DNA from: Planctomycetota bacterium
Lineage (GTDB): Bacteria > Planctomycetota > Phycisphaerae > Phycisphaerales > Phycisphaeraceae
Length of the DNA stretch: 64,000 nt
Direction of reading: 5' to 3'
Assembly: GCA_016350165.1 (NCBI GenBank)
Contig: CP066225.1
Coordinates: 1,674,001 to 1,738,000 of the forward strand
Position numbers and translations under genes: made by a program. A model generated the notes under the pieces. It saw nothing but the letters and a program-made list of their open reading frames with translations, was not told where the DNA came from and searched no databases. Position 1 is the first letter of the stretch. The number at the start of each line of letters is the position of its first letter. Shown piece after piece: positions 12,924-43,750 of the stretch.

Positions 12924-13451
12924 GCTTTCCAAACGTGCGCAAGCGCGCACAAAAAAACACGATCTTGGCATCAAAATCTAATCAAGTGCTACTAAGCGCT
13001 GATTAGAGTGTGCGCGCGCACGAAAATGACGGATCTTTGTTAACTGCTGCCGGGATATTTAGTTATGTAAATGGGCATGATTTTGGATTTTTAGCGGTTT
13101 TTGCTGAAAAATGACGAATTTTCACCATTTTTGACGCAGTTTGCTTACAATTTGAAGCGAAATTGCGAGTTTTGAGCAAGTTTGGTTTGGCTCAAAAACC
13201 AAAACCTGAACAAAACGTGCGCACAAGCCTGCATGTCATTGCTACTTTTCAGAAAGATCTGGGAAGAAAATCTGATTCGATTCGTTTGGCGAGGGGGGCG
13301 ATAAAATCGCGATATGGCCGATGAAGAGCTTTGATGCAGAATAGGATTGAGGGGCGAAATGTTTGGGGATAGAGAATGGGAGAGGGAAATGGAGGAGGGA
13401 TAACGGGGGATGATGGGGGGGATGATGGGGATGAAAATGGAATGAAGTGAA
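12924..13451. other. Intergenic island A: hairpins, phased A/T runs and a G-rich tract
   Basis: Three sub-parts. First, GTGCGC/GCGCAC elements at 12935-12950, 13010-13021 (perfect 12-bp palindrome) and 13217-13224, plus a hairpin TCTAATCA/TGATTAGA at 12977-13007. Second, from 13081 to about 13198, A/T runs begin near 13081, 13088, 13098, 13107, 13117, 13128, 13140, 13149, 13161, 13170 and 13181, close to the 10-bp helical repeat. Third, 13351-13430 is an almost pure purine tract with eight G-runs. No open frame of note. Confidence 0.7.
13351..13430 (+). repeat. G-run tract with quadruplex potential
   Basis: Runs of three or more G at 13351, 13365, 13378, 13384, 13397, 13405, 13415 (seven Gs) and 13427 on the plus strand, ending about 20 bases before the TTG start of the next gene. 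In the transcript this could fold as a quadruplex over the initiation region. Confidence 0.5.
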
Positions 13452-14348
13452 TTGAGTATTGAGACAGAGAAAAAATCGAAGTTGGAGTTTACGCCACCTA
13501 CAGCTGAACAGGTGCGAGGGCTGTTTACTGAAAACAGGCCAACTCAGGATTCACTGTGGATGGTGCGGCTTCCTCTCTTCATCGGGCTCGGTGCTGTCGG
13601 GATTTTACTGCTGGTGGACAATGCTGTGATCACGATGATGTTGTGGTTGGCATTCATCAGCGTCTTCATTGCTGCGATGATGCGCGTACGCTATTTGAAA
13701 CAACTCGAAGCGCAAGGCGTGCAGGTTGATGAATGGGCGATGCAGCGGCGTTATGTTGATGCACTACGATCTGCATGGGTGCTACTTCCCAAGTCACGTA
13801 AGCGACATGGGCTATACATGCGGATGTCGAATGTGATCGCTCATTGTTTAAGTGAGTTAAAGTGCCATGAAGCATCTGCGGAAGCTTATGATTTTCTGAT
13901 CGACCATTTGCCCTTAGAAGGCGCGGGCGTAAAGCAGTTACGCGTATACCGCGCAATCTCATGGCTAATGGAAGACCGCCTTGCCGATGCGGATGATACG
14001 TTGCGTCACTTACGCGGCGTAAAAAGTGAGTTCAAAGGCACGGCTCTTGCAAGTGCTTATACATATGCAGAATTACTGCAGTGCGTGAAGACGTATCACT
14101 TCGATGAAGGTGTTGCGTTATCTGAGACATTATTAAACGACATGCGGCCATTGGGGATTGAAGCTGGCTATACATATGCGATGATGTCCACGTGTTACCA
14201 CGAAATGGTTTTAAGAACTGAAGACGAAAAAGAAAAAGCGCGTCTTGAGAAAGAAGCGAATAAGTGGTGGGAGTATGCGACGTGTTTAATTAAGGAAGAG
14301 CATTTGATGAATCGGATGCCGCCGGAGGTAATGAAACAACGATCCTAA
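13452..14348 (+). CDS. Two-helix membrane protein with helical-repeat-like cytoplasmic domain
   Basis: 298 residues, unrecognised. Two adjacent membrane helices at about 39-80 (LPLFIGLGAVGILLLVDNAV, MMLWLAFISVFIAAMMRV) are followed by about 220 residues of paired helices with TPR-like character (MSNVIAHCLSELKCHEASAE, ISWLMEDRLADADDTLRHL). The start is the TTG at 13452; the nearest upstream ATG (13442) runs into a stop, so no better start exists before the first helix. The initiation region follows a G-rich tract. It is directly followed by a gene of the same layout, so the two are probably old duplicates acting together. Function unknown. Confidence 0.7.
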   Translation: MSIETEKKSKLEFTPPTAEQVRGLFTENRPTQDSLWMVRLPLFIGLGAVGILLLVDNAVITMMLWLAFISVFIAAMMRVRYLKQLEAQGVQVDEWAMQRRYVDALRSAWVLLPKSRKRHGLYMRMSNVIAHCLSELKCHEASAEAYDFLIDHLPLEGAGVKQLRVYRAISWLMEDRLADADDTLRHLRGVKSEFKGTALASAYTYAELLQCVKTYHFDEGVALSETLLNDMRPLGIEAGYTYAMMSTCYHEMVLRTEDEKEKARLEKEANKWWEYATCLIKEEHLMNRMPPEVMKQRS

Positions 14349-14366
14349 GTGTTTCTGAAAATAGAG

Positions 14367-15272
14367 ATGAAACGAGTAAACGAAGACAATGTGAAAGAAG
14401 CAATGCGTGGAGGTGGCATCAAATTAACGTTGCCACGCTTCAACGATGAGCTTTTGCGCAAACAGATTACTTGGGATGGCTGGATACGCTGGGGCTCGTT
14501 CACCACTTTAGCTGCGATCTTCGTTTGGTTTATTGTTCTGAATCCGGTTCTTGGTGCAGGCAGTAGCGGGTTGGTGATGATTCTGCTGATTATGGGTTGG
14601 CTGGGTTTAAACTCGATTAATGCAAAAACAGGCAGAGAATTGGCTCAAGTTTCGATGGTGCTGGACCAGGACCCGAAACGTGCTGAGGGTTGGATTGCAT
14701 TGGCGCTGGCGCGGAAGCCGCTGCTGCGCTGGGTGCGATTGATGATCTATCACCGTCTTGCAATCGTACGTCACCGTGAACAGGATTTTGCGGAATCTGC
14801 TGCGATTTGTCGTGGCGTGCTTGAATATTCATTAGGCCCCGCTGAAGCATCGCGAGCACATCTGCTTTTGATATTGACTGAAGCGTCGCTTGAAATTCGT
14901 GACATGGGGACAGCCTATTCATCGCTTAGTCAGTTGTATGGCATGAAGGTGAGTCTGGTTGAAGCACTACAAAGATTGTCACTTCAAATTCGTTATGAAG
15001 TGATGACTGGGAATTATGGGGCAGCGGTTGCGAATATTGAATCGAAACTTGAATTGGTTGAATTACTACCTGCGATGCAGTGCGGCATTGTGCATAGATT
15101 GTTGGCAATCGGAGCGGAACGATATGGTGATCGTGAGCTTGCTGAACGATTGAATAAACGTGCATGGCTGCTGTGTGGTGACAAAGTAATAAGAGGGATT
15201 GGTGAGGATATCGCAAATAGTAAAGGGATGACAATGGTGGGTGGCGAGAAGGGTTTGAATCTCGGCAAGTAA
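14367..15272 (+). CDS. Two-helix membrane protein, likely paralogue of the preceding gene
   Basis: About 301 residues. The frame is open from a GTG at 14349, immediately after the upstream stop; the ATG at 14367 is used here, and the true start is uncertain because neither has a clear ribosome site. The layout repeats the previous gene: two membrane helices (GSFTTLAAIFVWFIVLNPVL, GLVMILLIMGWLGLNSINA), then alpha-helical repeats (RLAIVRHREQDFAESAAICR, LLILTEASLEIRDMGTAYSS) resembling TPR units. No enzymatic motif. The tight spacing suggests one transcript and possibly a heteromeric membrane complex (inference). Confidence 0.7.
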   Translation: MKRVNEDNVKEAMRGGGIKLTLPRFNDELLRKQITWDGWIRWGSFTTLAAIFVWFIVLNPVLGAGSSGLVMILLIMGWLGLNSINAKTGRELAQVSMVLDQDPKRAEGWIALALARKPLLRWVRLMIYHRLAIVRHREQDFAESAAICRGVLEYSLGPAEASRAHLLLILTEASLEIRDMGTAYSSLSQLYGMKVSLVEALQRLSLQIRYEVMTGNYGAAVANIESKLELVELLPAMQCGIVHRLLAIGAERYGDRELAERLNKRAWLLCGDKVIRGIGEDIANSKGMTMVGGEKGLNLGK

Positions 15273-15385
15273 GTTGTCACGAAGGGGTGGCCTGGAAATG
15301 ATAGGCATGGAGGCGGCTGCAAAATTGCGATGATTCATGGGGGAAAAGCCGGAAGTGTTAGACGAGGTTTGTTATCATCTTCAAC

Positions 15386-16516
15386 ATGACGAATTTAGGA
15401 AATCTATTCCCGCCTGTTTGGTTTGCCGGTGCACACTGGTCAATGTTACTGGTGATTGTGCTGGTCGCGATGGTGTTGGTGATCAAAGGTGCTGACTGGT
15501 TGGTTGAAGGAGCTGCGGGGATTGCGAAGAAGTTGGGGATGCCTGAGGTAATCATTGGTGCGACAATCGTGAGTCTTGGGACGACGACTCCTGAGGCAGC
15601 AGTGAGCGTGCTTGCAGCCTGGGACGGTAAGGCGGGCCTCGCACTGGGTAATGGTGTTGGTTCAATTATTGCGGATACAGGTTTGATCTTCGGCGTCGGT
15701 TGTTTGCTATGCGCTTTACCTGCAGACAAATTCGTACTCAGTCGTCAGGGCTGGGTGCAGTTTGGTGCTGGATTGATTGTCAGCTTCGCATGCCTTGGAG
15801 CATGGTTTGCTTCAGGCGACGATGCGACATTGGGACGAAGCGTAGGGATTGTCTTTGTCGTACTGTTAGCAGCCTATCTCTTGATTAGTGTGAGATGGTC
15901 CAAACAACATCCGCACGGCGAACCTCGACTGGTTGCTGAAAATGGTCATAAAGACAGTGAAGAATCAGATGTCACTGCAAAAGGATTTGAAGAACCAAAA
16001 CATCGCGAACGTGGTGTTCTGGCTTTATTGGGGCTGGGCTTTATCGGATTAGTGATCGTCGTGTTCTCAGGTGATGGCTTGGTGCAAGCAGTCAGTGAAC
16101 TTGCTGTGCAAGCTGGAATACCTCAGGTAGTGATCGCTTCAACGCTGGTCGCATTTGGAACAAGCTTGCCTGAACTGGTGGTCGGCATCACGGCGATCAG
16201 AAAGGGACACGCTGAACTGCTCGTGGGTAACGTGATTGGTGCAGACATTCTGAACGTGCTGTTTGTGATTGGCGTGAGCGCATTGGCTGCACCGCTTGAT
16301 ATCGTGGATCAGAATGCAGTATCGCCGACGATGTTCCTGTACCTGCATATCCCTGTGATGATGGGCATGCTGATTTTGATGCGTCTGTACATCGCAGGCA
16401 GCGTGAAGCGTGGATCGTTCAGAAGATGGATGGGCGTGCCATTGGTTGCAGCATACGTTGTGTTTGTCGCGCTACAGTACTGGATCGCAACGGGTGGTGG
16501 CGGCACAGGTAGCTGA
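15386..16516 (+). CDS. Calcium/sodium antiporter (CaCA family, YrbG-like)
   Basis: Inner-membrane cation antiporter of 376 residues with about ten membrane helices. Both alpha-repeats that line the ion path are clear: VSLGTTTPEAAVSVLAAWDG then ALGNGVGSIIADTGLIFGVG in the first half, and LVAFGTSLPELVVGITAIRK then VGNVIGADILNVLFVIGVSA in the second. The acidic residues in TPEA and LPEL bind the cations in known members. The middle loop (about residues 170-210) is hydrophilic and variable. Probable role: calcium extrusion driven by sodium or proton entry; the exact ion pair cannot be told. It stands alone and ends at a good terminator. Confidence 0.93.
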   Translation: MTNLGNLFPPVWFAGAHWSMLLVIVLVAMVLVIKGADWLVEGAAGIAKKLGMPEVIIGATIVSLGTTTPEAAVSVLAAWDGKAGLALGNGVGSIIADTGLIFGVGCLLCALPADKFVLSRQGWVQFGAGLIVSFACLGAWFASGDDATLGRSVGIVFVVLLAAYLLISVRWSKQHPHGEPRLVAENGHKDSEESDVTAKGFEEPKHRERGVLALLGLGFIGLVIVVFSGDGLVQAVSELAVQAGIPQVVIASTLVAFGTSLPELVVGITAIRKGHAELLVGNVIGADILNVLFVIGVSALAAPLDIVDQNAVSPTMFLYLHIPVMMGMLILMRLYIAGSVKRGSFRRWMGVPLVAAYVVFVALQYWIATGGGGTGS

Positions 16517-16570
16517 TAAACACGAATACATCTTGCATGAGTTAATCATCGCAATTTAAAAGGTAAACGA

Positions 16571-16597
16571 AAGCCGGCCTTAGCGTCGGCTTTTTTT
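16571..16597 (+). terminator. Intrinsic terminator after the antiporter gene
   Basis: Stem AAGCCG (16571-16576) with CGGCTT (16587-16592), extended inward by a wobble and a C-G pair, followed by a seven-T run. Confidence 0.85.
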
Positions 16598-16599
16598 GT

Positions 16600-17184
16600 T
16601 TGCCCTTTGGGTGATCGCAACGCGCGGATGATGGCTGTGATCGAACCCAATTGCAACGGTGGGAAATAAGTCGGCGGCGGGCCCTTCGGCCAACGTTCAT
16701 GATTCGATTCCAATGCAGAATCTGGTTGCTCCTTTACAGAGTCAGCCAAAACTGCAGACGACTGTTCTGATTTTTGTGGGTTATTTTCCATGCCTGCTAT
16801 TGTGCGAGATTGAGATTTCAGAAACAGATGCAGGTCGCAGCAAGTTCAACCGATACAGTGCGATTTTTTGCAACTGTGCTGGTAGAGGAGGTTTCGAGGT
16901 GTACCGAAAGGCTGTTTTACGCCCATTTCATGACACGCAGATCCAACTTTGGAAAGCAATCAGAACAGTGTTCCATAACAGATACAGTATGGTAAAATTG
17001 TTACCAGTACAGCTTGGATAAATCGAACTGTACCGGTTCCACATACTGCGAACTGTGTCTTGTAGACAACAGGCAGGAACATAGGATGTGAAGGTGTGAT
17101 GATTTGACAGATTTCAAGTGGATCTGAGGTGGTAATGAGGGACCAACGGGGGGATGGGGTCATGTGGATGAAAGGCAGGTAGCT
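16600..17184. other. Long upstream region of the MocR-type gene
   Basis: No convincing gene. Several copies of TACAGT or its complement occur: near 16852, 16983 and 17008, and CTGTAC at 17028-17033. They cluster before the regulator gene. A weak stem GGTAA/TTACC spans 16991-17005. Confidence 0.45.
16991..17039. promoter_or_regulatory. Putative MocR operator cluster
   Basis: CCAGTACAG at 17004-17012 and its inverse CTGTACCGG at 17028-17036 form an inverted pair about 24 bp apart; the second lies in a near-palindrome GAACTGTACCGGTTC (17025-17039). Sites built on CTGTAC or GTACAG are known for several MocR-type regulators; assignment here is by position. Confidence 0.45.
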
Positions 17185-18756
17185 ATGAGCCCGATGGCGA
17201 CATTGAAAAAGAGCAGTCCGCTGAATCGTGAAGATGGTGGCGCATTGTACGAGCAGCTTGCAGATCGAATCGAAGGATTGATCGCAGATGGGGTAATGCT
17301 GCCGGGCGATCGCGTGCCTTCCGTCAGAAAGCTCAAGCAGCAATTTGGTGTAAGCATGTCAACGGTGCTCGAAGCATGCCGATTGCTGGAAGATCGTGGC
17401 TTGGTAACAGCACGCCCTCAAAGCGGTCACTACGTGCGTGAAAATCCAGCAATGAAACTGGAAGAGCCAAGTGAAAGCCGCCCAAGTCACGAAGCCGTCA
17501 AGGTCGATCGTGTGATGTCGCTGAAACTCAAGTTATCGATCGAGGACGAGTCTATTTTGCAGTTAGGCGCTGCTGTACCGAGTACAAATGATTTTCCTCA
17601 AAAAACGATCAACCGTTTGATCGGCCAATCATTGCGTGATGAAAGTGAGTTAGCTCACAAGTACAACACGCCACGTGGTGTGGAAGCGTTTCGTAAAGCT
17701 GTTTGTAAACGCATGATGTATGCAGGTATCTCAGCAGGCCCCGATGATGTGCTGGTCACAAACGGTGCGAAGGAAAGTGTCTATCTTGCACTAAAAGCTG
17801 TCACAAAGCCCGGCGACACTGTTGCAGTTGAAAGCCCAACTTACTTCGACCTGATCGTTACACTGGAAAGTTTGCACCTGAAAATTCTGCCACTGGCGAC
17901 CAATCCAAGAGACGGTGTAAGTTTTGATTGTCTCGGCGGCGCACTGCAAAAGAAGCAGGTTCAGGCAGTCGTTCTCATCACAAACTACAGTAACCCACTC
18001 GGTGTTTGCATGAGTGACTCACGTAAAAAAGCACTCGCAGCGATGATGGAGCGACACGATGTTCCTTTGATCGAAGACGACATTTGCGGCGACCTTTGCT
18101 TCGGTGATGAACGTGCAAAGACTGTCAAAGCCTACGATAAAAGCGATCATGTGATTTACTGTTCCTCATTCAGCAAAACGATATCACCCGGCCTACGTGT
18201 CGGCTGGATGGTGCCCGGCAAATATCAATCCAAAGTCGAACAGATCAAACTCGCAATCAATCAGGCCGCCCCAACACTCGGCCAACTCGCGATCTCCAAA
18301 TACCTCAACGGCGGCGGTTACGAACGCCACTTGCGCAAACTTCGCAAACTATATCAACAGCAAACAAGCCTGATGTTGCAGTACATTTCGCAGTCTTTCC
18401 CCGAAGGCACGAAAGTCAGTAAGCCAAGTGGCGGGCACGTCCTTTGGGTCGAAATGCCTGAAGGTGTAGACTCCATGAAGCTGCACGATGAAGCGATACG
18501 TGAAGGTATTGCAATTGCACCGGGACCGATTTTCAGCCCGCGTGAGGATGACTTTCTTAACTGCATGCGCATCAACACCGGGTTACCTTGGAGCGAACGC
18601 ATTGAGCCAGCTATTCAGCGGTTAGGTGAACTGGCTGTCGAACAACTCTGGCGTAACGGCGTCAGAAAGAAAGCAGTGAAACGTAAACCCTGCAAGTGTG
18701 AACCTGTAGTGAGTCACAAGCTGGATGACAACGTTGTCATGGGGAACAGGCATTGA
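17185..18756 (+). CDS. MocR/PdxR-type regulator: GntR winged helix fused to PLP aminotransferase-like domain
   Basis: Transcription factor of about 523 residues. I choose the ATG at 17185; the frame opens with GTG at 17164. The N-terminal winged helix (LYEQLADRIEGLIADGVMLP, PGDRVPSVRKLKQQFGVS) is GntR type. It is followed by a fold-type I aminotransferase domain with TNGAKESVYLALKAV, NYSNPLGVCMSD, IEDDICGDLCFG and the PLP-binding lysine in SSFSKTISPG (about K331 from this start). Such proteins sense pyridoxal phosphate or an amino compound bound to it. The C-terminal CKCEP and nearby basic residues are an unusual extra tail. The regulated gene is not obvious; autoregulation is likely given the upstream sites. 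Terminator follows directly. Confidence 0.9.
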   Translation: MSPMATLKKSSPLNREDGGALYEQLADRIEGLIADGVMLPGDRVPSVRKLKQQFGVSMSTVLEACRLLEDRGLVTARPQSGHYVRENPAMKLEEPSESRPSHEAVKVDRVMSLKLKLSIEDESILQLGAAVPSTNDFPQKTINRLIGQSLRDESELAHKYNTPRGVEAFRKAVCKRMMYAGISAGPDDVLVTNGAKESVYLALKAVTKPGDTVAVESPTYFDLIVTLESLHLKILPLATNPRDGVSFDCLGGALQKKQVQAVVLITNYSNPLGVCMSDSRKKALAAMMERHDVPLIEDDICGDLCFGDERAKTVKAYDKSDHVIYCSSFSKTISPGLRVGWMVPGKYQSKVEQIKLAINQAAPTLGQLAISKYLNGGGYERHLRKLRKLYQQQTSLMLQYISQSFPEGTKVSKPSGGHVLWVEMPEGVDSMKLHDEAIREGIAIAPGPIFSPREDDFLNCMRINTGLPWSERIEPAIQRLGELAVEQLWRNGVRKKAVKRKPCKCEPVVSHKLDDNVVMGNRH

Positions 18757-18777
18757 TATAAAATCCAATTCATAAAA

Positions 18778-18806
18778 AAAACGCCGCTTGAATGCGGCGT
18801 TTTTGC
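18778..18806. terminator. Bidirectional terminator
   Basis: Perfect stem ACGCCGC (18781-18787) with GCGGCGT (18794-18800), an A-run before and a T-run after. It serves the MocR gene on the plus strand and the small minus-strand gene ending at 18861. Confidence 0.88.
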
Positions 18807-18860
18807 TTTAGATTTGTTTGCATGTCAATAATTGTTCAAACGAAAAATAGTATATGTTCT

Positions 18861-19115
18861 CTAATGAGGACGCCTGTGTTGCTTAAACGTGCGGTGTGAG
18901 TTGATGCGTCGTTCCTGCATTTCCTGTATATATTTATGAGGCGTATGCAGCATTTGGGGCCTGATGTTTAGCTCCTCATTTTTCTTTTCCTCATTATCAT
19001 GCGTGTCCGTATCCGTGAGGTGTTTATCAAACTCTGGGAATGAAAATTTATAGTCACGCATACGGGGATAAGTCGTGGCGGAAATAATCTCAGTGAACCA
19101 TTTTCGCCTTTTCAT
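18861..19115 (-). CDS. Small basic hypothetical protein (84 aa)
   Basis: The frame is open from 19136, but the ATG at 19115 has a strong ribosome site (AAAGGAG, seven bases away), which is the best argument that the gene is real. The product begins MKRRKWFTEIISATTYPRMR and has a charged middle (TDTHDNEEKKNEELN) and a His/Arg-rich end (HRTFKQHRRPH). No signal peptide, membrane helix or known motif. It has its own upstream region with a CAAAC/GTTTG hairpin near 19149-19164 and shares a bidirectional terminator. Function unknown. Confidence 0.6.
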   Translation of the reverse strand: MKRRKWFTEIISATTYPRMRDYKFSFPEFDKHLTDTDTHDNEEKKNEELNIRPQMLHTPHKYIQEMQERRINSHRTFKQHRRPH

Positions 19116-19267
19116 TAGGATGCTCCTTTCAAGCATTCACCCATACTACAAACACTATGTTTGCAGGTGCTTTTCGGGTGATCGGCCCAAAGTTTAGGCA
19201 TCCCAACTTCACTGTCTAGTATAGTTGTAAAATTATTTTTCAGTCACAAATGACAGGTTTTTTACGT

Positions 19268-21028: not shown

Positions 21029-21094
21029 AGCAGCAACTCCGGAAGTTAACGGGTCTGCTTCAATGATAATTGATCGTCTGCAATTTAAATAGTT

Positions 21095-25226: not shown

Positions 25227-25562
25227 CGTGCGTGGGCGCGCACGAGATGAGTGGAAGTTGGTTTTGAACAGGCACATCAATGTGGAGGAATTTGAATGTT
25301 TTGGAAATATGAATTTGATGAAAATGGCTAAAAATGAAGAGGAATGAGGTGAAATGGTTTGGAATTGGGCAGAAATGGGAAATTGTTTTGGGTTTGTGCG
25401 CACGAAAGTGCATGTTGCGCGCACAAAAGCGGTGTTTAGCATTGAAGAATTGTAAGAAATGGGCTGAAAACAGTTAGAAACGGCGCGGAATGGGTTAAGA
25501 ATGGTTAGAAATGGCTTAAAAATGGCAGGTAAATTTTGAGTGATTGCGTATTTGTGCGCGCG
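25227..25562. repeat. Phased A-run island with GTGCGC hairpins (island B)
   Basis: The 9-bp perfect inverted repeat TTTGTGCGC (25393-25401) with GCGCACAAA (25419-25427), and CGTGCG/CGCACG at 25227-25244. Between and after them A-runs recur at about 10-bp steps. Shares GCGCGCACAAAAGCG with the island at 43.5-43.7 kb. Confidence 0.7.
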
Positions 25563-25728
25563 GTTTGTTTGCGAAGCCCTCAACGGGGCCGGGCGGGCCT
25601 TTGTGTGATGAGCGAAGGATTGAGGGTAAGGATGGGGTGGCGGTGTGTGGGGGTGGTGAGGGTTTGTGGTGTGAGGCGGGTAGTTGTTTCACTTGAGCGT
25701 GTCGATGGCTGAAGGCGTGGGAAGACCG

Positions 25729-25823: not shown

Positions 25824-25844
25824 CGCAGCCCGTAGGTCTGCGGC
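25824..25844. repeat. REP-like hairpin copy 2
   Basis: Stem CCGCAG (25824-25829) with CTGCGG (25839-25844) and possible inner CC/GG pairs, followed by CTAATGGTGAGTTG, matching the flank of copy 1. Confidence 0.5.
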
Positions 25845-25922
25845 TAATGGTGAGTTGTTACACTCAAACGTATCGTTTGAATTAATGAGTCATCATTTAT
25901 GGGTTGGTTGGATGGGCGCATG

Positions 25923-35573: not shown

Positions 35574-35587
35574 CAATCAAACATAAA

Positions 35588-35626: not shown

Positions 35627-35651
35627 TGTCTCATTTCATTCGAATCAATAA

Positions 35652-36200
35652 TTATTCATTGATACCAAGATCAGATTTTGTGAATAGTGCATCGAAACCA
35701 TACCCAGCTCCTTCAACATTTTCACGTGCCCCTTCCTGGCGATCGATCGTCGCGATGATCTTCACGACCTTCACGCCGAACTCACCCTCAAGCAATTTCG
35801 CAGCTTCAAGCACCTGACCACCTGTCGTCGCTACGTCTTCGAGAATCACAATATTCTCACCCGCTTCGATCTTGCCTTCCAACTGCTTCGCCGTGCCGTA
35901 ATCTTTCTTCTGATTGCGAATCAAAACCGTTGGCTTACCTGAAAAAATCGCCGTCGCTGACACTATCGGGATCCCACCCAACTCCGCGCCAGCCAAACGA
36001 TCGACCGTGATCCCCTCTGCCGCTTCAATCGCTTTCACCTTCTCAGCAAAAGCTTTACCCAACGCCTCCAGCACATCACCCTGCGTCTCGAAGAGATACT
36101 TATCGAGATAGTACTTGGACTTACGACCACTACGGAGCGTGAAATCGCCATGCAGCAATGCCACTTCCGCAATCCGATTTGCTAATTCTTCGTGATTCAT
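35652..36200 (-). CDS. pyrE: Orotate phosphoribosyltransferase
   Basis: Pyrimidine synthesis enzyme joining orotate to PRPP to give OMP. 182 residues from the ATG at 36200 (a TTG at 36206 also opens the frame). Typical order: LLHGDFTLRSGRKSKYYLDK at the N-terminus, then LAGAELGGIPIVSATAIFSG, IRNQKKDYGTAKQLEG with the flexible-loop lysines, and the PRPP signature VILEDVATTGGQVLEAAKLL. Length is at the short end of the family. Single gene; the upstream plus-strand gene diverges from it. Ends at a shared terminator. Confidence 0.95.
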   Translation of the reverse strand: MNHEELANRIAEVALLHGDFTLRSGRKSKYYLDKYLFETQGDVLEALGKAFAEKVKAIEAAEGITVDRLAGAELGGIPIVSATAIFSGKPTVLIRNQKKDYGTAKQLEGKIEAGENIVILEDVATTGGQVLEAAKLLEGEFGVKVVKIIATIDRQEGARENVEGAGYGFDALFTKSDLGINE

Positions 36201-36302
36201 GCCCAAAGTATACAGTCCTCCCCCCCATCCGTCTCACCACCCCCTGCCCTCACCAAAAAACACTAACCCAATCAGACTCAAAACTCTACAATATGCTCAA
36301 CT

Positions 36303-36686
36303 ATGAATCTCAAAACCAAAATCACCGGGGCACTCATCTCAATTTCCACATTCATTCTCATGTTCGCCATCATCCTCGTCGGCGGCGTCCTTGCTGGCAT
36401 CTACATCGAAAACACCAATACTCAGCCGCCTTACAGCGACATCATTGCCGCCCTCCCCTTCATCGTATCCCTCGGCATCGGTCTACTCGTCTTACGCTAC
36501 CGCCACTCACTCCGCCCAAAGCATGCCCTGGCATGGAAATGCTCCAAATGCTCGCACACACTCGTCGGCCTGTTCGAACCACGCTGCCCTGAATGTGGCA
36601 CCTACCTCACACAAACACAAATCCAAAATGCGCCACCCGGCCTCTTCAACTTCGATTCAAACCAACCACCCTCCATCACACCCTAA
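36303..36686 (+). CDS. Two-helix membrane protein with zinc ribbon
   Basis: 127 residues: two membrane helices (ALISISTFILMFAIILVGGV and IIAALPFIVSLGIGLLVLRY), then a zinc ribbon CSKCSHTLVGLFEPRCPECG and a Pro/Asn-rich tail. This ribbon with GLFEPRCPECG is a style I associate with planctomycete membrane proteins. No ribosome site is obvious before the ATG at 36303. Function unknown. It diverges from pyrE and precedes an SDR gene. It belongs loosely with the other zinc-ribbon proteins at 37.6-39.6 and 44.7-46.5 kb, but lacks their WK.W.I.YLE motif. Confidence 0.72.
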   Translation: MNLKTKITGALISISTFILMFAIILVGGVLAGIYIENTNTQPPYSDIIAALPFIVSLGIGLLVLRYRHSLRPKHALAWKCSKCSHTLVGLFEPRCPECGTYLTQTQIQNAPPGLFNFDSNQPPSITP

Positions 36687-36788
36687 CCTATCATTCGCTT
36701 CACACTCAACTAACACATTTCCGCATTTTTACACATAAGTACACCCCCCAGTTGCGAAATTCCCCCATTCAAACCCATACTGGTAATC

Positions 36789-37607
36789 ATGACAAGAGAT
36801 CTTAACGACAAAGTCATCGTCATCACCGGCGCCTCTTCAGGCATCGGTGCTGCTACCGCACTCGCATGTGCTGACCTCGGCATGAACGTTGTTGTCTCTG
36901 CACGACGAGCCGACAAACTCGAAATCGTCGCTGAAAAAATTAAATCCAAAGGCCAACAAGCTCTCGCAATCCCATGCGATGTTGCTCACGATGAACCTGT
37001 CAAAGAACTCTTCGCTAAAACCAACGAACACTTCGGCCGCCTCGACGTCGTCTTCGCAAACGCAGGTTACGGCATCTTCGCCTCAGTCATGGACACAACA
37101 CCCGAAGAACACCGACACATTTTCGAAGTCAATTACTTCGGCACCGTCCGCACCATCCACGAATCATTCCCATACCTCGAAAACACACCCAACTCACTCC
37201 GTCAATATCTCATCACCTCATCCGTCGTCTCAGAAGTCGGCATCCCTATGTTCGGCCCATACGCAGCAACCAAAGCCGCTCAAGACGGCCTCGCCTCAGC
37301 CTTCCGCGCCGAAATGGCAATCAAAGATATCTACGTCACTTCCATCCACCCCGCTGGCACTTCATCCGAATTCTTCGATGTCGTTGATGATATTTCAGCC
37401 GAAAAACCAGCCGCTCAAAACACACCCAAACACATCATGCAGACCCCACAGCAGGTCGCAACTAAAATCACCCGTGCCATTCAAAAACCGTGTGCCGAAG
37501 TTTGGCCCATGCGCTCCGTTCACTGGGGCGTCTCATTCGCAACCCTCTTCCCACGCCTCCGCGCCCACGTCCTAAAAGGCCACGCTAAAAAACTAGTCGC
37601 AAAATAA
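36789..37607 (+). CDS. Short-chain dehydrogenase/reductase
   Basis: NAD(P)-dependent oxidoreductase of 272 residues with a classical SDR layout: cofactor loop TGASSGIG (13-20), SARRADKL after strand 2 (suggesting NADPH), CDVAHDE, NAGYG near 92-95, catalytic Ser in ITSSVVSEVG, and YAATK with Tyr158 and Lys162. The C-terminal part (PAGTSSEFFDVVDDISAEKP, then MQTPQQVATKITRAIQKP) resembles the large group of SDRs of unknown substrate. Convergent with the next minus-strand gene, only seven bases apart, with a CTAATC/GATTAG inverted repeat at the junction. Confidence 0.9.
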   Translation: MTRDLNDKVIVITGASSGIGAATALACADLGMNVVVSARRADKLEIVAEKIKSKGQQALAIPCDVAHDEPVKELFAKTNEHFGRLDVVFANAGYGIFASVMDTTPEEHRHIFEVNYFGTVRTIHESFPYLENTPNSLRQYLITSSVVSEVGIPMFGPYAATKAAQDGLASAFRAEMAIKDIYVTSIHPAGTSSEFFDVVDDISAEKPAAQNTPKHIMQTPQQVATKITRAIQKPCAEVWPMRSVHWGVSFATLFPRLRAHVLKGHAKKLVAK

Positions 37608-37614
37608 TCTCTAA

Positions 37615-38283
37615 TCAACGATTAGTTTGTTGATTGGAATACAACTCGTCAAACATCTCGTCCTTCAAAGGCAGTTTCCAGCCACATTCCGAACAACAAT
37701 CACTTTGGCTGCGTGAAACATCATAACCGCAGCGACCACATAGTCCTGTATTCTCACGATGTGATTGCAGACACTCTTTTTCCGTCACGTCCCTAGCCCA
37801 CAATTGATAAGCTTGTATAAAATGCATCATTGGAAGGAGTACAAGAAAAAGCGAAAACCATGAGTGAGTTCCATATCCTTTAAAAATGGGCAACACGATC
37901 ATCACACTCAAAATAAACACCCCAACCCATAAACGATCAACCGCTTGCTTACGTTTTATTCCCCTCGCTCCACTCGGCCCATATACATGTTCATCCTTTG
38001 CTCTATACCAAAGCAAACACCAATACCCTGCATATGCCACACTCATCACCAACATCAACTGCCAAATCTCAATCGCAGCAAACCAAAACACCAACGTTGC
38101 AACAGCAAGCAAAGCAACAAACACCCCACACATGAAAACTTCACGACCTTTTCTTTTCAACAACAAGCGATCCAACCACGCACGACGCTTCGCCCTCTCC
38201 TCATCAAAATAAGCACGCATATCTCGTCTCTCTGACTCATCACGACCTTCACTCTCACCTAAACTCAAAGCGACTAACTCCAC
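37615..38283 (-). CDS. Membrane protein with C-terminal zinc ribbon
   Basis: 222 residues from a GTG at 38283 that overlaps the upstream gene by 10 bases; an internal ATG at 38220 follows GAGAGACGAG and may be the true start. Basic N-terminus, four membrane helices (including EVFMCGVFVALLAVATLVFW, LMLVMSVAYAGYWCLLWY, LWVGVFILSVMIVLPIF), then the ribbon CGRCGYDVSRSQSDCCSECGW near the end. It shares the CGYD...ECGW ribbon with the neighbours but has no segment after it. Last gene of a four-gene minus-strand operon. Function unknown. Confidence 0.75.
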   Translation of the reverse strand: MELVALSLGESEGRDESERRDMRAYFDEERAKRRAWLDRLLLKRKGREVFMCGVFVALLAVATLVFWFAAIEIWQLMLVMSVAYAGYWCLLWYRAKDEHVYGPSGARGIKRKQAVDRLWVGVFILSVMIVLPIFKGYGTHSWFSLFLVLLPMMHFIQAYQLWARDVTEKECLQSHRENTGLCGRCGYDVSRSQSDCCSECGWKLPLKDEMFDELYSNQQTNR

Positions 38284-39077
38284 AAATACTGCACAACACG
38301 CACAAGATTAATATTCGTGTGAAGCCAAAACCATGACACAGTAAGTACCACGATCAAACTAACCAGCGCATAGACATCAAATTGCCGAGTCAACATGATC
38401 ACAACTGCCGTCATTACCACCGCATTTAAAACCAATCCCAGCAAACTGAGCATGACCAGATTTCTTTTAGGCTGTTCCAAGTAGATTATTCGCCAATTTT
38501 TCCACCACCACCAAACCCAACGTGTCTCCACCAGAAGATTACCCGGCGGATAATACCATCCACATTCAGGACACTGATTCTCACTCACATGTAAAGCATC
38601 ATACCCACACTTACCGCAATGCAACGGATCTTCACGATACGCCCACAAATACTGCTTCTCACGAGGCCCTCTCAAATACAATGCAAAACCAACCAGTAAA
38701 TAGCATCCACCAAAACCACCTGCCAAATAAACCATAACATTCATCGCCCCAGTCATATACCACGCCCCAAAGCCGCACGTCATGATCGCCAGACCCAACT
38801 TCACATTCTGCATCACACTGCGATCATGCGCCTCCGCAACCACATACCGCCCACGATGCGCATTATCTTTTGCAAACGCTATGCCCCAGACAAACACGAG
38901 CAATCCTACAACACTCACACCCAAACCAATCCGCATCCCGATCCCACCTCGCAGCACCATCGCACCACTCATCAGCAGCAATATCCCCCCAACAAATGCG
39001 TACAGATTCGTCACCCGCCGCATTGCAATACGACGGATCAATGACCTTTTCTTTTTCAGAGTTTGGCCGACCATCAT
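38274..39077 (-). CDS. Zinc-ribbon membrane protein with WK.W.I.YLE motif
   Basis: 267 residues, ATG at 39077 (a second ATG follows) after GAGGGTGA. Helix pairs flank a cytoplasmic ribbon: first LYAFVGGILLLMSGAMVLRG and VSVVGLLVFVWGIAFA, then two more, the ribbon CGKCGYDALHVSENQCPECGW, the motif WVWWWWKNWRIIYLE, and two more helices. The same order occurs in the proteins at 44689-45429 and 45801-46541, so these three form a paralogous family. I know no function; a metal-binding loop between membrane parts could scaffold or sense. The stop overlaps the next gene. Confidence 0.78.
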   Translation of the reverse strand: MMVGQTLKKKRSLIRRIAMRRVTNLYAFVGGILLLMSGAMVLRGGIGMRIGLGVSVVGLLVFVWGIAFAKDNAHRGRYVVAEAHDRSVMQNVKLGLAIMTCGFGAWYMTGAMNVMVYLAGGFGGCYLLVGFALYLRGPREKQYLWAYREDPLHCGKCGYDALHVSENQCPECGWYYPPGNLLVETRWVWWWWKNWRIIYLEQPKRNLVMLSLLGLVLNAVVMTAVVIMLTRQFDVYALVSLIVVLTVSWFWLHTNINLVRVVQYLWS

Positions 39078-39127
39078 TCACCCTCGGAACATCTAGCTCT
39101 CAATTAGATTCTTTTCACTTCCGGGGA

Positions 39128-39637
39128 TCAATCACAACATCCCAGCAACAGCATCCCACATTGCGGACAATAGAAAGCTTGATTCTTCTCCTCACCACCA
39201 ACATTACACACAGGACATATCACCACAGGCTCATCATCCACATGCTTTATCTTCTCTACATCACCGCCGCCTCCACCATCCTCACAATCAACAAACGCAT
39301 ACCCGCTTTGGCAGTGCACCTCATCCTCAAGCGGCCCCTCAACCTCATTCTCCTGCGCCATCTCCCACAACACCTTCGGGTCAACCAAAGGTTCAACATG
39401 TGCAGGCTCGTCATACTGCCGAGGCAACAACTCCGGATGCTCATCCGTCGAACAATGCGTTAAAGGATCATCTTCTTTCACTTCACCAGACTCCTTCACA
39501 GGCTCATCAAAATCACTCTGCATCACCTCGCCGCCCTGGCTGCCATCACCGCCCATCTGCCCAATATCACCAACACCATCATCAGGCTCGTCATCAAAAC
39601 TTTCTGGTTTCGCTTTTGCTATCATCACGACATCCAC
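39128..39637 (-). CDS. Acidic protein with C-terminal zinc ribbon
   Basis: 169 residues, soluble. The first 120 are very acidic and low in hydrophobics (PESFDDEPDDGVGDIGQMGG, VKESGEVKEDDPLTHCSTDE), probably disordered, with a Gly run (CEDGGGGGDVEKI). The end is a zinc ribbon CPVCNVGGEEKNQAFYCPQCG followed by LLLGCC. Starts at GTG 39637 or at the ATG at 39625; neither has a strong ribosome site. It sits between two membrane proteins in the same operon, 23 and 50 bases from its neighbours. Function unknown. Confidence 0.68.
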   Translation of the reverse strand: MDVVMIAKAKPESFDDEPDDGVGDIGQMGGDGSQGGEVMQSDFDEPVKESGEVKEDDPLTHCSTDEHPELLPRQYDEPAHVEPLVDPKVLWEMAQENEVEGPLEDEVHCQSGYAFVDCEDGGGGGDVEKIKHVDDEPVVICPVCNVGGEEKNQAFYCPQCGMLLLGCCD

Positions 39638-39660
39638 TTCTTCTAATCATCCATTAGACA

Positions 39661-40329
39661 TCATGCTTTCTTCTTACCCAACGGAACAAAGCCAACAGCA
39701 AGCGCGATCAACACAAGCGCTATCGTAAACACCACCGGCACAGTCATCACCAACTCAGGCCTCGCAACCACAATCGCAATCCAACATGCCAACAGTGCAA
39801 AACGTATCGTCTTCAACTTACCCAACGCAGCAGGCAGTTCCACTCCCTCTTTCACACGCTTTGGAAATACCTGCGTCTCAATCACCGAAATCAACACAAC
39901 ACCAATGACCAGCGCATTCAATAAACCAATTAACTGCAACTGATGCGCAAGCGCCGCCTGCCTCGCCTTAACACTCAACTGCCCCTTCGCCGTCTCGATC
40001 GCCTGTGGCAACATCTTCGACATCGCCCCTTCAACATCCTCAACACCCCTCGCCTTCAACTGCTCTTCAAGCTGAGGCCGAATCTCCGCTTCCACCGCCG
40101 CCTGTTTCTTATCAAACACAAACAACTCACGAACCTGAGCCAGATTCCCAATAAACAAACTTCGATACACATTCGGCGCAAACTTATTCAACACGCCCGG
40201 CCCCAACACCAAACCAATCAATAACCCCGCGATCAGCAGATACAAATCCCGATGATCCGCAAACGGCAACATCGACATCATCTCCCCCGACTTCGAACCA
40301 CCCTGAGTAGCTTCATTTCGATCGCTCAT
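39661..40329 (-). CDS. Membrane protein with central coiled region
   Basis: 222 residues; ATG at 40329 after GAGG (five bases). One N-terminal helix (LYLLIAGLLIGLVLGPGVL), a charged helical stretch of about 80 residues (QAAVEAEIRPQLEEQLKARG, MLPQAIETAKGQLSVKARQA), then three membrane helices (LIGLLNALVIGVVLISVIET, IRFALLACWIAIVV, TVPVVFTIALVLIALAVGFV) and a basic end. No family recognised. First gene of the four-gene minus-strand operon that continues with the zinc-ribbon proteins, which hints at a common membrane complex (inference). Confidence 0.72.
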   Translation of the reverse strand: MSDRNEATQGGSKSGEMMSMLPFADHRDLYLLIAGLLIGLVLGPGVLNKFAPNVYRSLFIGNLAQVRELFVFDKKQAAVEAEIRPQLEEQLKARGVEDVEGAMSKMLPQAIETAKGQLSVKARQAALAHQLQLIGLLNALVIGVVLISVIETQVFPKRVKEGVELPAALGKLKTIRFALLACWIAIVVARPELVMTVPVVFTIALVLIALAVGFVPLGKKKA

Positions 40330-40519
40330 GTCCACCTCGACTATTCATCGATTAGCCCGGAAATCTCATTCTCTTTATCCGCTCATTCACACTTCACAAC
40401 AACCTGAGCAAATCTACATAAACATATACGTATTAATAACCTGTACATCATAACCACCACACCGCCAGCTATGGAAGTATTTTATTCACTCCTCCACTGA
40501 TCTCGCTTAGCATTCACAC

Positions 40520-40549
40520 AAAAAAAAAGCCCGACCAACATGGCCGGGC
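40520..40549 (-). terminator. Intrinsic terminator of the 40616-41029 gene
   Basis: GCCCG (40529-40533) pairs with CGGGC (40545-40549), with an inner CCA/TGG pair; eight Ts follow on the minus strand. Confidence 0.83.
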
Positions 40550-40615
40550 CATCTATATACATGCAAAAAACAAATCGTACTCAACCTCCTGCCCCATCAA
40601 TACCATTGAATTCTC

Positions 40616-41029
40616 TTAGCCAAAGAACTCCAACGGATTCAATCGATCCGACCAGTTTCCCGTCGAGATCGCTTTTTGGCGAACCTTCTCAAGCAGTTCA
40701 ACCAACTCGCTCGACAGCTGATCGATCCGACTCGTATTCTGCTCATCAAATCGCCCATGAATATCGCCCGTCTGGAACGCAACAAAATCATGATCCATCA
40801 ATACACGCTTCACTGCCTGCTTATGTTGCGACATCGGTGCGTGATGCGATTGCTGCACCAAATGCAGCAACTCGTTCATCGAATTCAACAGTGTACACCT
40901 CGTCCCATCCAGCCGCGCATTATTTTCGCCCAGCAAATCCGCGACCATCGTCTTTGATGACCGCCATTCCTGCTCAAACAAGCGATTCAGCCGTTCCATT
41001 TCACGTGATATTTCGTGAGTGCCATACAT
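40616..41029 (-). CDS. Hypothetical helical protein (137 aa)
   Basis: ATG at 41029 with AAAGGGG seven bases upstream (the frame opens with TTG at 41032). The protein is soluble and mostly helical: MYGTHEISREMERLNRLFEQ, a middle with LLNSMNELLHLVQQSHHAPM, and a late coiled stretch (RIDQLSSELVELLEKVRQKA). It ends DRLNPLEFFG. No known motif, no signal peptide. A single gene with its own terminator, so it is probably expressed alone. Function unknown. Confidence 0.68.
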   Translation of the reverse strand: MYGTHEISREMERLNRLFEQEWRSSKTMVADLLGENNARLDGTRCTLLNSMNELLHLVQQSHHAPMSQHKQAVKRVLMDHDFVAFQTGDIHGRFDEQNTSRIDQLSSELVELLEKVRQKAISTGNWSDRLNPLEFFG

Positions 41030-41613
41030 CAAAAAACCCCTTTCATTTCACACCGCCCGCTAACGCTTCGCTAATCTCTGACTCGTCGTCTCAGCCACAT
41101 TCCCTTGCGCCGCGTTTTCCTGACTTATAGCGGGTAACTTGGTGATACCTTAGTAATACTAGGTGGACTATACGCCTTATCTATACGTACTAGTACCTAT
41201 CTGCTCTGAATTAAAAATCCAAACAAACCGGGCAAGGTAACGCGCTAAAAAAGCACTTCACAACACAAGCATGTACGACAACTTCTGTACCCGGAATTAC
41301 GCTCAAAACTCATTAACACATGCGCGTTTTACAAATCCAACCACGCACTTCCCCTCAATAATTCACCCCTGATTCACCGCTTTTTTCCACTCACAAATAT
41401 CAACCCGCGAATCAATTGCCACTTCCGAAATCTCAAAAAAACACTTGAAAATGAACTGAAATATGCATTATCGCTAATCACGGAATTAACATGACTCTCT
41501 TCTCCTATTATCAGTTTTAACCGACCTCTTGCAACAAAAAAACCCGCCAAAAGACGGGTTCCATGTAAATTCATCTATTACTGACAAACAGCAAACGCTT
41601 TATCAGCCGCTTA
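41030..41613. other. Intergenic region between the 137-aa gene and the sigma-factor operon
   Basis: No believable gene. It holds a terminator at 41534-41562 and, around 41140-41200, a cluster of short inverted repeats (ACCTTAGT with ACTAGGT; TACGTACTAGTACC) that probably mark the promoter of the 137-aa gene. Confidence 0.4.
41534..41562 (-). terminator. Terminator of the sigma-factor operon
   Basis: AACCCG (41541-41546) pairs with CGGGTT (41555-41560); on the minus strand a seven-T run follows. Confidence 0.83.
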
Positions 41614-42702
41614 TCAAGGCACCAGAAATACATCTTCCTCTGATGCAGGTGTTTCTGTTCCAGTGTACTTCTCAACACCAAACGCACCCCAGATATTATC
41701 CAATTTATCATCGTCACCCTGCGCCACAAACGGCGTCTCAATCCACTCAACATTACCATCTAATCGCAAGATAGTCTGACCTCGTTCATTATGCAGCTTC
41801 GATGATGCAGCCACACCAACATTCGGATCAAATCGTAGCGAATTCGTTCGTGCATCAAACACAAACATCGGATTCTTATCTGCAAGAATCACCATACGCG
41901 GACGTGCTTCAATACGTGCTGGACGCATCCCATACATATTCTGATACGAATACGAAACCTGTGCAGGCGATTTCCAATCAAAATCACCAGCAACCAGTTC
42001 ACCCTCAACAGGTGCATTTTCATTACCCGCACAATTCATATCATGCGGCTTCACATATCCATTTCTCGCCAACAAGTACAAATGCGCTGAATTCGAAGTA
42101 ACCTTCTCATCTTCACGCGCCGACTTGCCAACGTTCCACCACATCGCGCCAGGCTGCGTCGCTAGCGAAGGAAGTGCATTACCATTGTCCTCAGCATATC
42201 GACCAATCGCGCTGCCCATGCCCGACAACGCCGCACTGCATGCAACACGATTCGCTGTCTGACGATTATTTTGAACCGCAGGCATCAACAAACAGAATCC
42301 AAGAATGAATACCGCTGCAGCACTCACGATCTGTTTCCACGACACGCCCAATGAACGGCGCGGCTGCGAAAGCATATCGATCTGAGCAGTAAAACGTTCA
42401 CGCTGCTCGGATTGCTTGATGAAAGACATCGTCTTTGCAGTCAGATCTTCCGGAACTTCTTCATCCGGATACTGACCAAAGACATTCAGAAGATCTTCGA
42501 TCTTCTCTGCTCGCTCTGATGAACCTGCTGGCATCGGCCCGCTCGTGATGCTGAACCCCACTTCAGCACTACTCGCATTGCCGGCTGCCCGGTTCGCCAA
42601 CAGCGAATCCAAAACATCCGCATCAGCTTCCGAGAGATGATAAATCTTTACATCATCTGGATTTGGCATCGAATTTTTAGGTGTCTCTGGCATATTGCTC
42701 AC
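41614..42702 (-). CDS. Membrane protein in anti-sigma position with pilin-like outer domain
   Basis: 362 residues, overlapping the sigma gene by four bases (GTGA); a later ATG at 42693 is possible. The cytoplasmic part (1-120) is acidic (EKIEDLLNVFGQYPDEEVPE), lacks the zinc motif of common anti-sigma factors, and is followed by one membrane helix (QIVSAAAVFILGFCLLMPA). The outside part starts LMPAVQNNRQTANRVACSAA and GSAIGRYAEDNGNALPS, and near its end has SKLHNERGQTILRLDGNVEW, which is the order found in pseudopilins (helix end PAV..NR.TA, then H...GQ..L.LDG.VEW). So it appears to join an anti-sigma-like cytoplasmic part to a pilin-like periplasmic domain. Role inferred from operon only. 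Confidence 0.72.
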   Translation of the reverse strand: MSNMPETPKNSMPNPDDVKIYHLSEADADVLDSLLANRAAGNASSAEVGFSITSGPMPAGSSERAEKIEDLLNVFGQYPDEEVPEDLTAKTMSFIKQSEQRERFTAQIDMLSQPRRSLGVSWKQIVSAAAVFILGFCLLMPAVQNNRQTANRVACSAALSGMGSAIGRYAEDNGNALPSLATQPGAMWWNVGKSAREDEKVTSNSAHLYLLARNGYVKPHDMNCAGNENAPVEGELVAGDFDWKSPAQVSYSYQNMYGMRPARIEARPRMVILADKNPMFVFDARTNSLRFDPNVGVAASSKLHNERGQTILRLDGNVEWIETPFVAQGDDDKLDNIWGAFGVEKYTGTETPASEEDVFLVP

Positions 42703-43391
42703 GACTCACGACCCCCTGATCCGGTTCGGTCATAACGCGCTTTCCATAGCTGTGAAAACGTCCCAACAGCTGCATGCAGTCTGGACTTAACTGTGCCAAG
42801 CGGGATCGAAAGGATTTCGGCGATTTCCTTGTACGCGAACTGATTAAAGTACGCCAGCGTCAAGACTTCCCGCAAATGATCCGGCATCGACTGCACTACA
42901 TTACGCACTAACTCCCTCTGCTCTGAGTCCAGTGCGTTCTGATCAGGAATCGGCACATCCGCTTCCAAAAGATCCACAAACGAGCGGCTATCATCGCCAC
43001 TGCTATCGATCATGGTTGAAAGAGACGCGGCCTGTCTCCTGTTATTCTTACGTAAGTAGTCCCGTGCTTTGTTCGCTGCAATTGTAAAAAGCCACGGTTT
43101 AAATCGTTTATTTATATCGAATGTATCGGCTGAGAGGTGTATTTGGAGGAATGCTTCCTGGAAGATGTCCTCGGCGGCGGCGCGGTTGCCACAGAAACGG
43201 ATGAGGAAGTGGAAGAGTTCCTGACGATAGCGCTCGATAAGTTCTTCGAAGCAATGAGTTTGCCCGGAGCGGTAGTTTGCGACCAATTGCTCGTCTGTCA
43301 TCTTCTCGGCCAAGCGTGGTTCCTCTGTGAGCACCGTCATGGAGTGATTGTACGGGATGTTACCGGAAAAATGGGGTCGGTTGCGAGTCAT
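42699..43391 (-). CDS. ECF-type RNA polymerase sigma factor
   Basis: Sigma-70 family protein with only regions 2 and 4. Region 2: FEELIERYRQELFHFLIRFC, AAEDIFQEAFLQIHLSADTF and FKPWLFTIAANKARDYLRKN. Region 4: MPDHLREVLTLAYFNQFAYK, EIAEILSIPLGTVKSRLHAA. It would direct polymerase to a set of genes on release by a partner, probably the membrane protein encoded next. The start is either ATG 43391 (230 aa) or ATG 43340; no clear ribosome site at either. Plus-strand base bias changes inside this gene, from C-rich at the end to G-rich near the start. Confidence 0.92.
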   Translation of the reverse strand: MTRNRPHFSGNIPYNHSMTVLTEEPRLAEKMTDEQLVANYRSGQTHCFEELIERYRQELFHFLIRFCGNRAAAEDIFQEAFLQIHLSADTFDINKRFKPWLFTIAANKARDYLRKNNRRQAASLSTMIDSSGDDSRSFVDLLEADVPIPDQNALDSEQRELVRNVVQSMPDHLREVLTLAYFNQFAYKEIAEILSIPLGTVKSRLHAAVGTFSQLWKARYDRTGSGGRES

Positions 43392-43750
43392 ATTCTCAGA
43401 TGTGGAATGTCATTTTCATGACATCGGCGAACCCGAGTCAGTATGACTACAAGTGTCACACCCATATATCGTGAGCGCATACTTACAATCACCCAATATA
43501 CAACCTATTTATCATAAATGATTTACGATATTTTTAACAGTTTCGCTGATTTACCAGTTTTGGGCCATAAATGGCCAGAACTGGTCCGAAACAGCGTGTT
43601 TTGGTCTCAAAAATGTTAGAAACGGGCAATTAATATCAATTCGTGCGCGCTTTGATGTATGCGGGCTGAGCAAAGCGCGCGCACAAAAGCGCGTTTGGGG
43701 TCTGAAGCGGTCATTTGAGTGACGAAAATGACAAATCACATTTGGGCAGA
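43392..43750. other. Intergenic island C: phased A/T runs and GC hairpins
   Basis: A/T runs start at 43508, 43516, 43522, 43531, 43541, 43550, 43558, 43569, 43579, 43589, 43599, 43609, 43620 and 43629, very near a 10-bp step. Within them a long hairpin CCAGTT...AACTGG (43554-43584) with inner GGCCAT/ATGGCC. Then GCGCGCTTTG (43645-43654) pairs perfectly with CAAAGCGCGC (43671-43680), flanked by GT and AC. No gene. Confidence 0.7.
43508..43684. repeat. Phased A/T-run island with GC-rich hairpins (island C)
   Basis: Shares GCGCGCACAAAAGCG with the 25.2-25.6 kb island, and, just downstream at 43722-43732, ACGAAAATGAC with the 12.9-13.2 kb island. Confidence 0.7.

Follow-up and report, generated by a model that had tools for sequence, protein, structure and literature searches.

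What kind of element recurs in three separate intergenic islands of a planctomycete chromosome, where runs of A or T return about every 10 bp and the same GTGCGC-containing words are found? The islands, A, B, and C, lie in a window of 64,000 nucleotides (by the window the whole stretch analysed is meant) from a Planctomycetota bacterium (GCA_016350165.1, contig CP066225.1, here genome G000, a single contig of 5,234,020 bases; the window is G000:C1:1674001-1738000). The original prediction, made from the letters of the window, regarded them as a new family of curved, protein-binding or RNA-producing elements, perhaps for nucleoid organisation. The islands turn out to belong to a genome-wide family of about 130 clusters, extending well beyond the three places first noticed. 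Each module opens with a box, GYGCGCACAAA, from which phased A/T runs extend over about 14 helical turns, and in the clearest copies a second and a third box close modules of 149 and 150 bp. The explanation weighed here, which we consider an even call, is that the family represents ancient, vertically inherited intergenic DNA-architecture sites, each module of which would wrap one protein complex.

Phased A/T runs in the islands

The phasing of each island was compared with 1000 dinucleotide-preserving shuffles, using the spectral power of A/T runs of at least 3 bases at periods of 9.5-11.2 bp. The power of island A (13081-13210) was reached by none of the shuffles, that of island B (25300-25535) by two, and that of island C (43508-43632) by four, with peaks at 10.3, 10.4, and 10.0 bp, respectively; the predicted 10-bp phasing is thus stronger than in the shuffles. 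Of all 160-bp windows of the 64 kb, island A has the strongest A/T periodicity, followed by a group that includes C and B. One further, equally strong A/T-periodic region was found at 53.86-54.12 kb, and it has no box. This intergenic, box-free stretch (53861-54170) contains many TACGAT-like words and lies upstream of a gene at 54168.

The exact words that the islands were said to share were found again, GCGCGCACAAAAGCG at 25417 and 43677 and ACGAAAATGAC at 13020 and 43722. The GTGCGC motif had also been thought to be confined to the islands. For the 6-mer this did not hold, as 7 of 13 GTGCGC and 8 of 15 GCGCAC lie outside, whereas for the 8-mer GYGCGCAC it did, with all 10 places on both strands inside. 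The reported GTGCGC/GCGCAC inverted repeats largely reflect the near-palindromic box itself, and the commonest close arrangement of boxes is a direct repeat.

Boxes and modules across the genome

The box GYGCGCACAAA occurs in 241 copies in G000, against 3 copies of the reversed box, which served as the control pattern in all genome counts. A second species of the same genus, probably Poriferisphaera (G001, 4,291,168 bases), carries 145 copies (control 5). The word GCGCGCACAAAAGCG, with at most one mismatch, is present 93 times in G000 (control 0). Most of the following results concern a box-centred sample of G000, consisting of 107 stretches picked around boxes (545 kb, 187 of the 241 boxes); L-numbers denote retrieved stretches and G-numbers genomes. 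In this DNA, picked as it was around boxes, ACGAAAATGAC has 4 copies, each less than 300 bp from a box (reversed control 0).

The box is an 8-bp near-palindrome, mostly arranged in direct repeats. Distances between the 187 boxes on the same strand peak at 149 (25 pairs) and 150 bp (17 pairs), which gives 42 direct-repeat pairs; pairs on opposite strands less than 600 bp apart are few in the retrieved DNA, and their distances are scattered. The modules of G001 are slightly shorter, with a spacing of 148 bp in 7 of 12 and 147 bp in 3 of 12. Box pairs 141-167 bp apart were found at 62 places in G000, 23 in G001, and 1 in the other 49 family genomes, with a single match of the reversed control overall.

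The 21 copies in G000 in which a box lies 296-314 bp after another were aligned as full elements. Their parts follow one another as a 5' motif, a region holding either of two alternative hairpin-like segments, a CCATACCAAA-type stretch, box 1, module 1 (149), box 2, module 2 (150), and box 3. The copies are diverged, with a median pairwise identity of 0.665 and a maximum of 0.805. At profile positions of about 95-175, the hairpin-like segments CCGCCGATCCACGATCGGC or CCTCAATGGCC..GGCCTCATTGAGG stand in the same place, as if interchangeable. The 5' motif (CAACGATACGCTTTAGTGAAACAAC type) is also seen by itself in tandem arrays (L084:1156-1830, 106-bp unit, 6.4 copies), is repeated at L124 (minus strand, about 2001-2449) and in the window (25840-25881, minus), and recurs in G001 in steps of about 73 bp. 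Long intergenic DNA around full elements can be strongly C-rich and G-poor on one strand (L084:700-2900). Two subfamilies were also observed. In G001, a conserved interior, TTCGCACT..GCGGAAAATTCAGTTAGCGCGCGGTTATCAC, lies between boxes about 149-150 bp apart (G001:146615, 1786089, 1813552, 3030792, 3578792, and 3668207; L149, L195, L134, L145, L200, and L201). At L007, L014, L028, and L043, a consensus DnaA box, TTATNCACA, precedes a GTGCGC or GCGCGC box by a few bases. Of 14 consensus DnaA boxes in the retrieved DNA, 7 are near box clusters, against 1.5 expected by area, and 4 of these 7 come from one small subfamily.

Helical phasing from the box

When A/T content was averaged over boxes, it oscillated downstream, both in paired and in other copies and in both species, with a mean period of 10.76-10.92 bp. 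For G000, the period is 10.92 bp in 53 paired boxes (bootstrap 10.82-11.00) and 10.86 bp in 134 others (10.74-10.96); for G001, it is 10.78 bp in 14 paired boxes (10.66-10.92) and 10.76 bp in 67 others (10.64-10.90). In these four sets, the oscillation exceeds the strongest of 500 rotated nulls in power by a factor of 1.8 to 6.4. It starts at the box and holds a roughly constant phase over a distance exceeding 100 bp. On the upstream side of solo boxes, the signal is weak (0.025), close to but below the null maximum of 0.031 (null mean 0.011). An A-tract cluster is marked by A/T runs in helical phase along some 100 bp, and in this family such runs exceed chance.

In module 1, A runs and T runs can take each other's place. 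TTT stands opposite AAA at 0.137 in register vs 0.017-0.034 at an offset of 4-6 bp, i.e., about five times as often, and single peaks mix both kinds of run (at peak 62, 12 A and 9 T among 27; at peak 93, 11 A and 10 T). A single-base test for over-represented A/T mismatches in this module was weakly positive (0.27 vs 0.24). Between the species, agreement in A/T vs G/C is 0.598 (chance 0.517); given that both bases are A/T, the probability of the same base is near chance (0.540, chance 0.501), and for G vs C it is somewhat above it (0.683, chance 0.619).

Chromosomal distribution and gene context

With genes called by a simple codon-usage gene caller, 183 of the 187 boxes lie outside them. The clusters fall into tandem (51), convergent (30), and divergent (18) gaps, with 5 unclassified. 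A majority direction could be assigned to 47 tandem-gap clusters, of which 27 point along the genes and 20 opposite, so no direction is preferred.

The spacing of clusters along the chromosome is strikingly even. Automatic merging gave 127 clusters in G000 with a mean gap of 41 kb and a coefficient of variation (CV) of 0.662, vs 0.988 for random placement; none of 10000 random sets was as even, and only 2 gaps are shorter than 10 kb where 27.1 are expected. A list of 133 clusters merged by hand has a mean gap of 39 kb and 2 such gaps vs 29.6 expected. Both lists rest on the matches listed, among which GYGCGCACAAA is given on both strands over 0-1.898 Mb. That region alone holds 52 clusters with a CV of 0.685 (27 of 10000 random sets as even) and 1 gap below 10 kb vs 12.3 expected. 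For each complete single-pattern list taken alone, the CV is not significant (0.860, 1324/10000; 0.942, 3961/10000); in neither is any gap below 10 kb, vs 8.4 and 9.4 expected (0/10000). In the first 2.84 Mb of G001, 60 clusters have a CV of 0.547 (0/10000 as even) and 2 gaps below 10 kb vs 11.2. Random placement was not confined to intergenic gaps, a restriction expected to have a small effect, because the 12 longest gaps of the window are at least 371 bp long, about one per 5 kb. The origin of G000 was placed near 2.45 Mb from the skew of retrieved genes, and no clear replichore bias was seen for the boxes of the G000 clusters.

Counterparts in the second species and wider occurrence

The two Poriferisphaera species are far apart, with an average nucleotide identity by BLAST (ANIb) given as 72.89% (PMC10945688). 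At 24 of 47 G001 loci (22 of 45 without two double retrievals), a homologous neighbour gene lies less than 1.5 kb from a G000 box, whereas by area about 7% of loci, on a rough estimate, would be expected to do so. Homology was taken from the best one-way, not reciprocal, blastp match (identity at least 45%, at least 60 bits). Since about half of the G001 loci have homologous neighbours, site positions are common to both species. The counterpart of island C (L200) adjoins a 90%-identical homologue of the protein encoded at 42699-43391.

In 397 Phycisphaerae genomes, the 15-base form of the box is concentrated in the two Poriferisphaera genomes (174 and 63 copies), the next having 13 and 9. Three genomes outside this sample, G015, G012, and G057, contain 15, 4, and 14 boxes, which lie in other dispersed repeats. 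These repeats share the same GCGCGCACAAA box and have spacings of their own (G057, L160-L187; G015, L158-L186; G012, L159-L168); in G015 the copies are closely alike. The box is thus of greater age or wider use than the 150-bp module. In G091, 13 boxes were observed. A scan for tandem boxes in 84,980 species, a collection that may omit the window's own and near genomes, gave 7 scattered single matches in unrelated bacteria.

Layout of the islands

The features of the islands are collected in Table 1. A profile of the full elements identifies island B as a clear partial member on the minus strand; the matches of island C and of island A, the latter to the end of module 2, are weak.

Table 1. 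Boxes, phased arrays, and element parts in the three islands and nearby (positions in the window; profile, alignment of full elements)
Feature	Position	Strand	Basis
Island A: box GCGCGCACAAA	12943..12953	+	sequence
Island A: palindromic double box GTGCGCGCGCAC, overlapping word ACGAAAATGAC at 13020	13010..13021		sequence
Island A: phased A/T-run array, strongest of the window, 10.3 bp	13081..13205		0/1000 shuffles
Island A: similar to end of module 2 and box 3 (profile 503-538); box at 13217-13224	13191..13226	+	E 0.001, weak
Island B: outer box GCGCGCAC	25236..25243	+	8-mer search
Island B: left phased array, module-1-like (profile 228-325 at 25404-25321)	25300..25392	-	E 1.1e-4; shuffles
Island B: box GTGCGCACAAA, 158 bp from the box at 25561	25393..25403	-	box search
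Island B: box GCGCGCACAAAAGCG, identical in island C	25417..25431	+	word search
Island B: right phased array (module 1)	25432..25550	-	2/1000 shuffles (whole island); profile
Island B: box GCGCGCACAAA, box 1 of the partial full-length element	25551..25561	-	profile, box search
Island B: partial full-length element, upstream part and module 1 (profile 42-340)	25441..25718	-	E 1.8e-30
Extra copy of part of the element 5' end (profile 50-87)	25840..25881	-	E 9.2e-4, weak
Island C: phased array (profile 266-358 at 43626-43541)	43508..43632	-	4/1000 shuffles; E 6.6e-5
Island C: box GCGCGCAC, facing the array	43643..43650	-	8-mer search
Island C: box GCGCGCACAAAAGCG	43677..43691	+	word search

Proposed wrapped DNA-architecture sites

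Of the functions suggested at first, a role in nucleoid organisation is the best fit to the even spacing, the indifference to gene direction, and the positions common with the second species. The sites look like places where a protein could wrap DNA. In the proposed mechanism, the box would mark one end of the DNA stretch wrapped by a protein complex. Relaxed DNA has a helical repeat of about 10.5 bp; because the mean period of the family, about 10.8 bp, exceeds it, a right-handed, positive wrap would be favoured. DNA gyrase would be the likeliest wrapper, since the length and period of its motif fit. Sites mostly 14-84 kb apart would let supercoils enter or would anchor domains. Gyrase in particular is a candidate only, and a doubtful one; the main alternative is a box-binding nucleoid protein of another kind. 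One frame of 888 amino acids with six matches to the GyrA C-terminal repeat was found in G000. A histone-type nucleosome site was rejected, there being no match to the PF00808 histone fold in the genome (the control matched 3 of 14 genomes; other histone-like families were not searched).

In kind, the family stands closest to BIME-2 repeats, strong gyrase sites, and A-tract clusters. The E. coli gyrase motif is described as 130 bp long with 10.75-bp periodic flanks, a 36-bp core lying between two 47-bp periodic arms (PMC6379681), and gyrase is reported to wrap up to 120-140 bp of DNA (PMC12324340), close to one module of the family. As in this motif and in the strong gyrase site (SGS) of phage Mu, A/T and G/C are phased over about 130 bp, with a period of 10.75 there vs 10.76-10.92 bp here; 10.75 bp falls inside the bootstrap interval of three of the four box sets, and the paired set of G000 (10.82-11.00) is slightly above it. 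Unlike the gyrase motif, the module is opened and often closed by a strict box, and modules follow in tandem at 149-150 bp. BIME-2 elements, which are reported to bind gyrase and have a proposed role in chromosome organisation (PMC2817692), are likewise intergenic and present in more than 100 copies. They differ in that no alternating REP hairpins were found here, in that diverged units are held together by box, length, and phase, and in the strongly even spacing of our family; a REP-type imperfect palindromic stem, often GTAG-led, was sought, and the modules of the 21 full copies have no consensus stem. The E. coli nucleoid contains clusters of A-tracts of about 100 bp, proposed to shape nucleoid loops (Tolstorukov et al. 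2005, cited in PMC4761138). The arrays are similar to them in size and content, but they start at a fixed box, form a discrete family, and lie at regular genomic intervals. That the family is new, as first supposed, is consistent with the open-access papers searched, among which no earlier description of the box family was found (subscription papers were outside this scope).

Several results weigh against wrapped architecture sites. Bacterial genomes in general are said to have a characteristic period near 11 bp (PMC4132750), and gyrase is therefore not singled out by period alone; the peaks of the islands (10.0-10.4 bp) are, moreover, below the family mean. Phasing is continuous from box to box, with no clear unphased core of 36 bp as in the gyrase motif. 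The exchange of A and T runs in place is missing from module 2 (TTT opposite AAA 0.031 in register), the letters of which are conserved (0.795 vs 0.500), and the letters of G000 module 1 also keep some identity (0.593 vs 0.500). Only 75 of 187 single arrays downstream of a box pass p 0.05, whereas 11 of 239 segments of background do; most copies are therefore weak or decayed. On the upstream side, 67 of 187 pass, partly owing to modules that adjoin some boxes on that side. An exact-box direct repeat of 146-154 bp occurs in both species at 5 of 22 matched loci vs 5.3 with shuffled partners, so the 150-bp spacing is a family trait that is not kept site by site. In addition, 254 of the 397 Phycisphaerae genomes lack the box, most others have 1-3, and the full module is present in two species only.

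Other explanations

Two other explanations, both unlikely in our judgement, deserve attention. According to the first, the family consists of old non-autonomous mobile elements with the boxes as their ends, which spread in ancient times and are now decaying, the even spacing resulting from target immunity. The copies are indeed dispersed, modular, and mosaic, with single and multiple boxes; the dispersed repeats of G015, G012, and G057, closely alike in G015, hold the same box; and module spacing is not kept site by site between the species. However, the full copies are old at the identities given above, and near-identical copies, a sign of recent movement of the miniature inverted-repeat transposable element (MITE) type, are absent among the 21. 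Moreover, about half of the examined G001 loci adjoin the same genes despite the low ANIb reported (PMC10945688), and module length stays at 149-150 although the letters have diverged.

The second assumes clustered sites of a sequence-specific protein for the control of segregation or division, of the nucleoid-occlusion or anchoring type, for which phased arrays would only aid looping. It is held at the same low probability. The strict near-palindromic box with its conserved AAA tail, the regular chromosomal distribution without clear replichore bias, and the frequent occurrence of several boxes per cluster agree with it, but taken alone it leaves the phase-locked array of 100 bp unexplained.

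Rho-type transcription terminators, with a C-rich, G-poor strand and regularly spaced C residues downstream of genes, are very improbable. In the full element, the strand that bears the box is rich in C and poor in G, and in 75 of 99 classified clusters the box strand is the C-rich strand of the gap; however, the reading was rejected because element direction is independent of gene direction (27 sense and 20 antisense in tandem gaps, with 18 clusters in divergent gaps), and A runs and T runs swap in place in module 1. A structured non-coding RNA family is the least probable of all: although the elements are repeated and intergenic, with conserved module order and fairly conserved module 2 letters, RNAalifold leaves the 21 full G000 elements almost unpaired (-10.4 kcal/mol over 550 columns) and Rfam has no match for the window or 20 element loci, so that, direction being also independent of genes, neither RNA production nor hairpins as a common feature, both part of the original prediction, found support.

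Significance

In our view, the way in which bacteria fix the borders of supercoiled domains is poorly defined at the sequence level. If the wrapped-site explanation is correct, then, more speculatively, the family might represent a new landmark of the bacterial chromosome, i.e., nucleosome-like wrap sites with a fixed box-to-box module of 147-150 bp, about 14 turns, and a positive-wrap period, rarely with less than 10 kb between them, inherited in place, and setting up supercoiled domains in a planctomycete lineage; we regard this fuller picture as possible rather than probable. The pattern also suggests that selection has acted on helical phase while the letters were little conserved, which standard motif searches would miss. 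The family offers about 130 countable sites with a clear grammar of box, module length, phase, and genomic spacing, and a second cultured species has counterparts of them; their evolution, their part in domain structure, and their occupancy by gyrase or nucleoid proteins are therefore directly testable.

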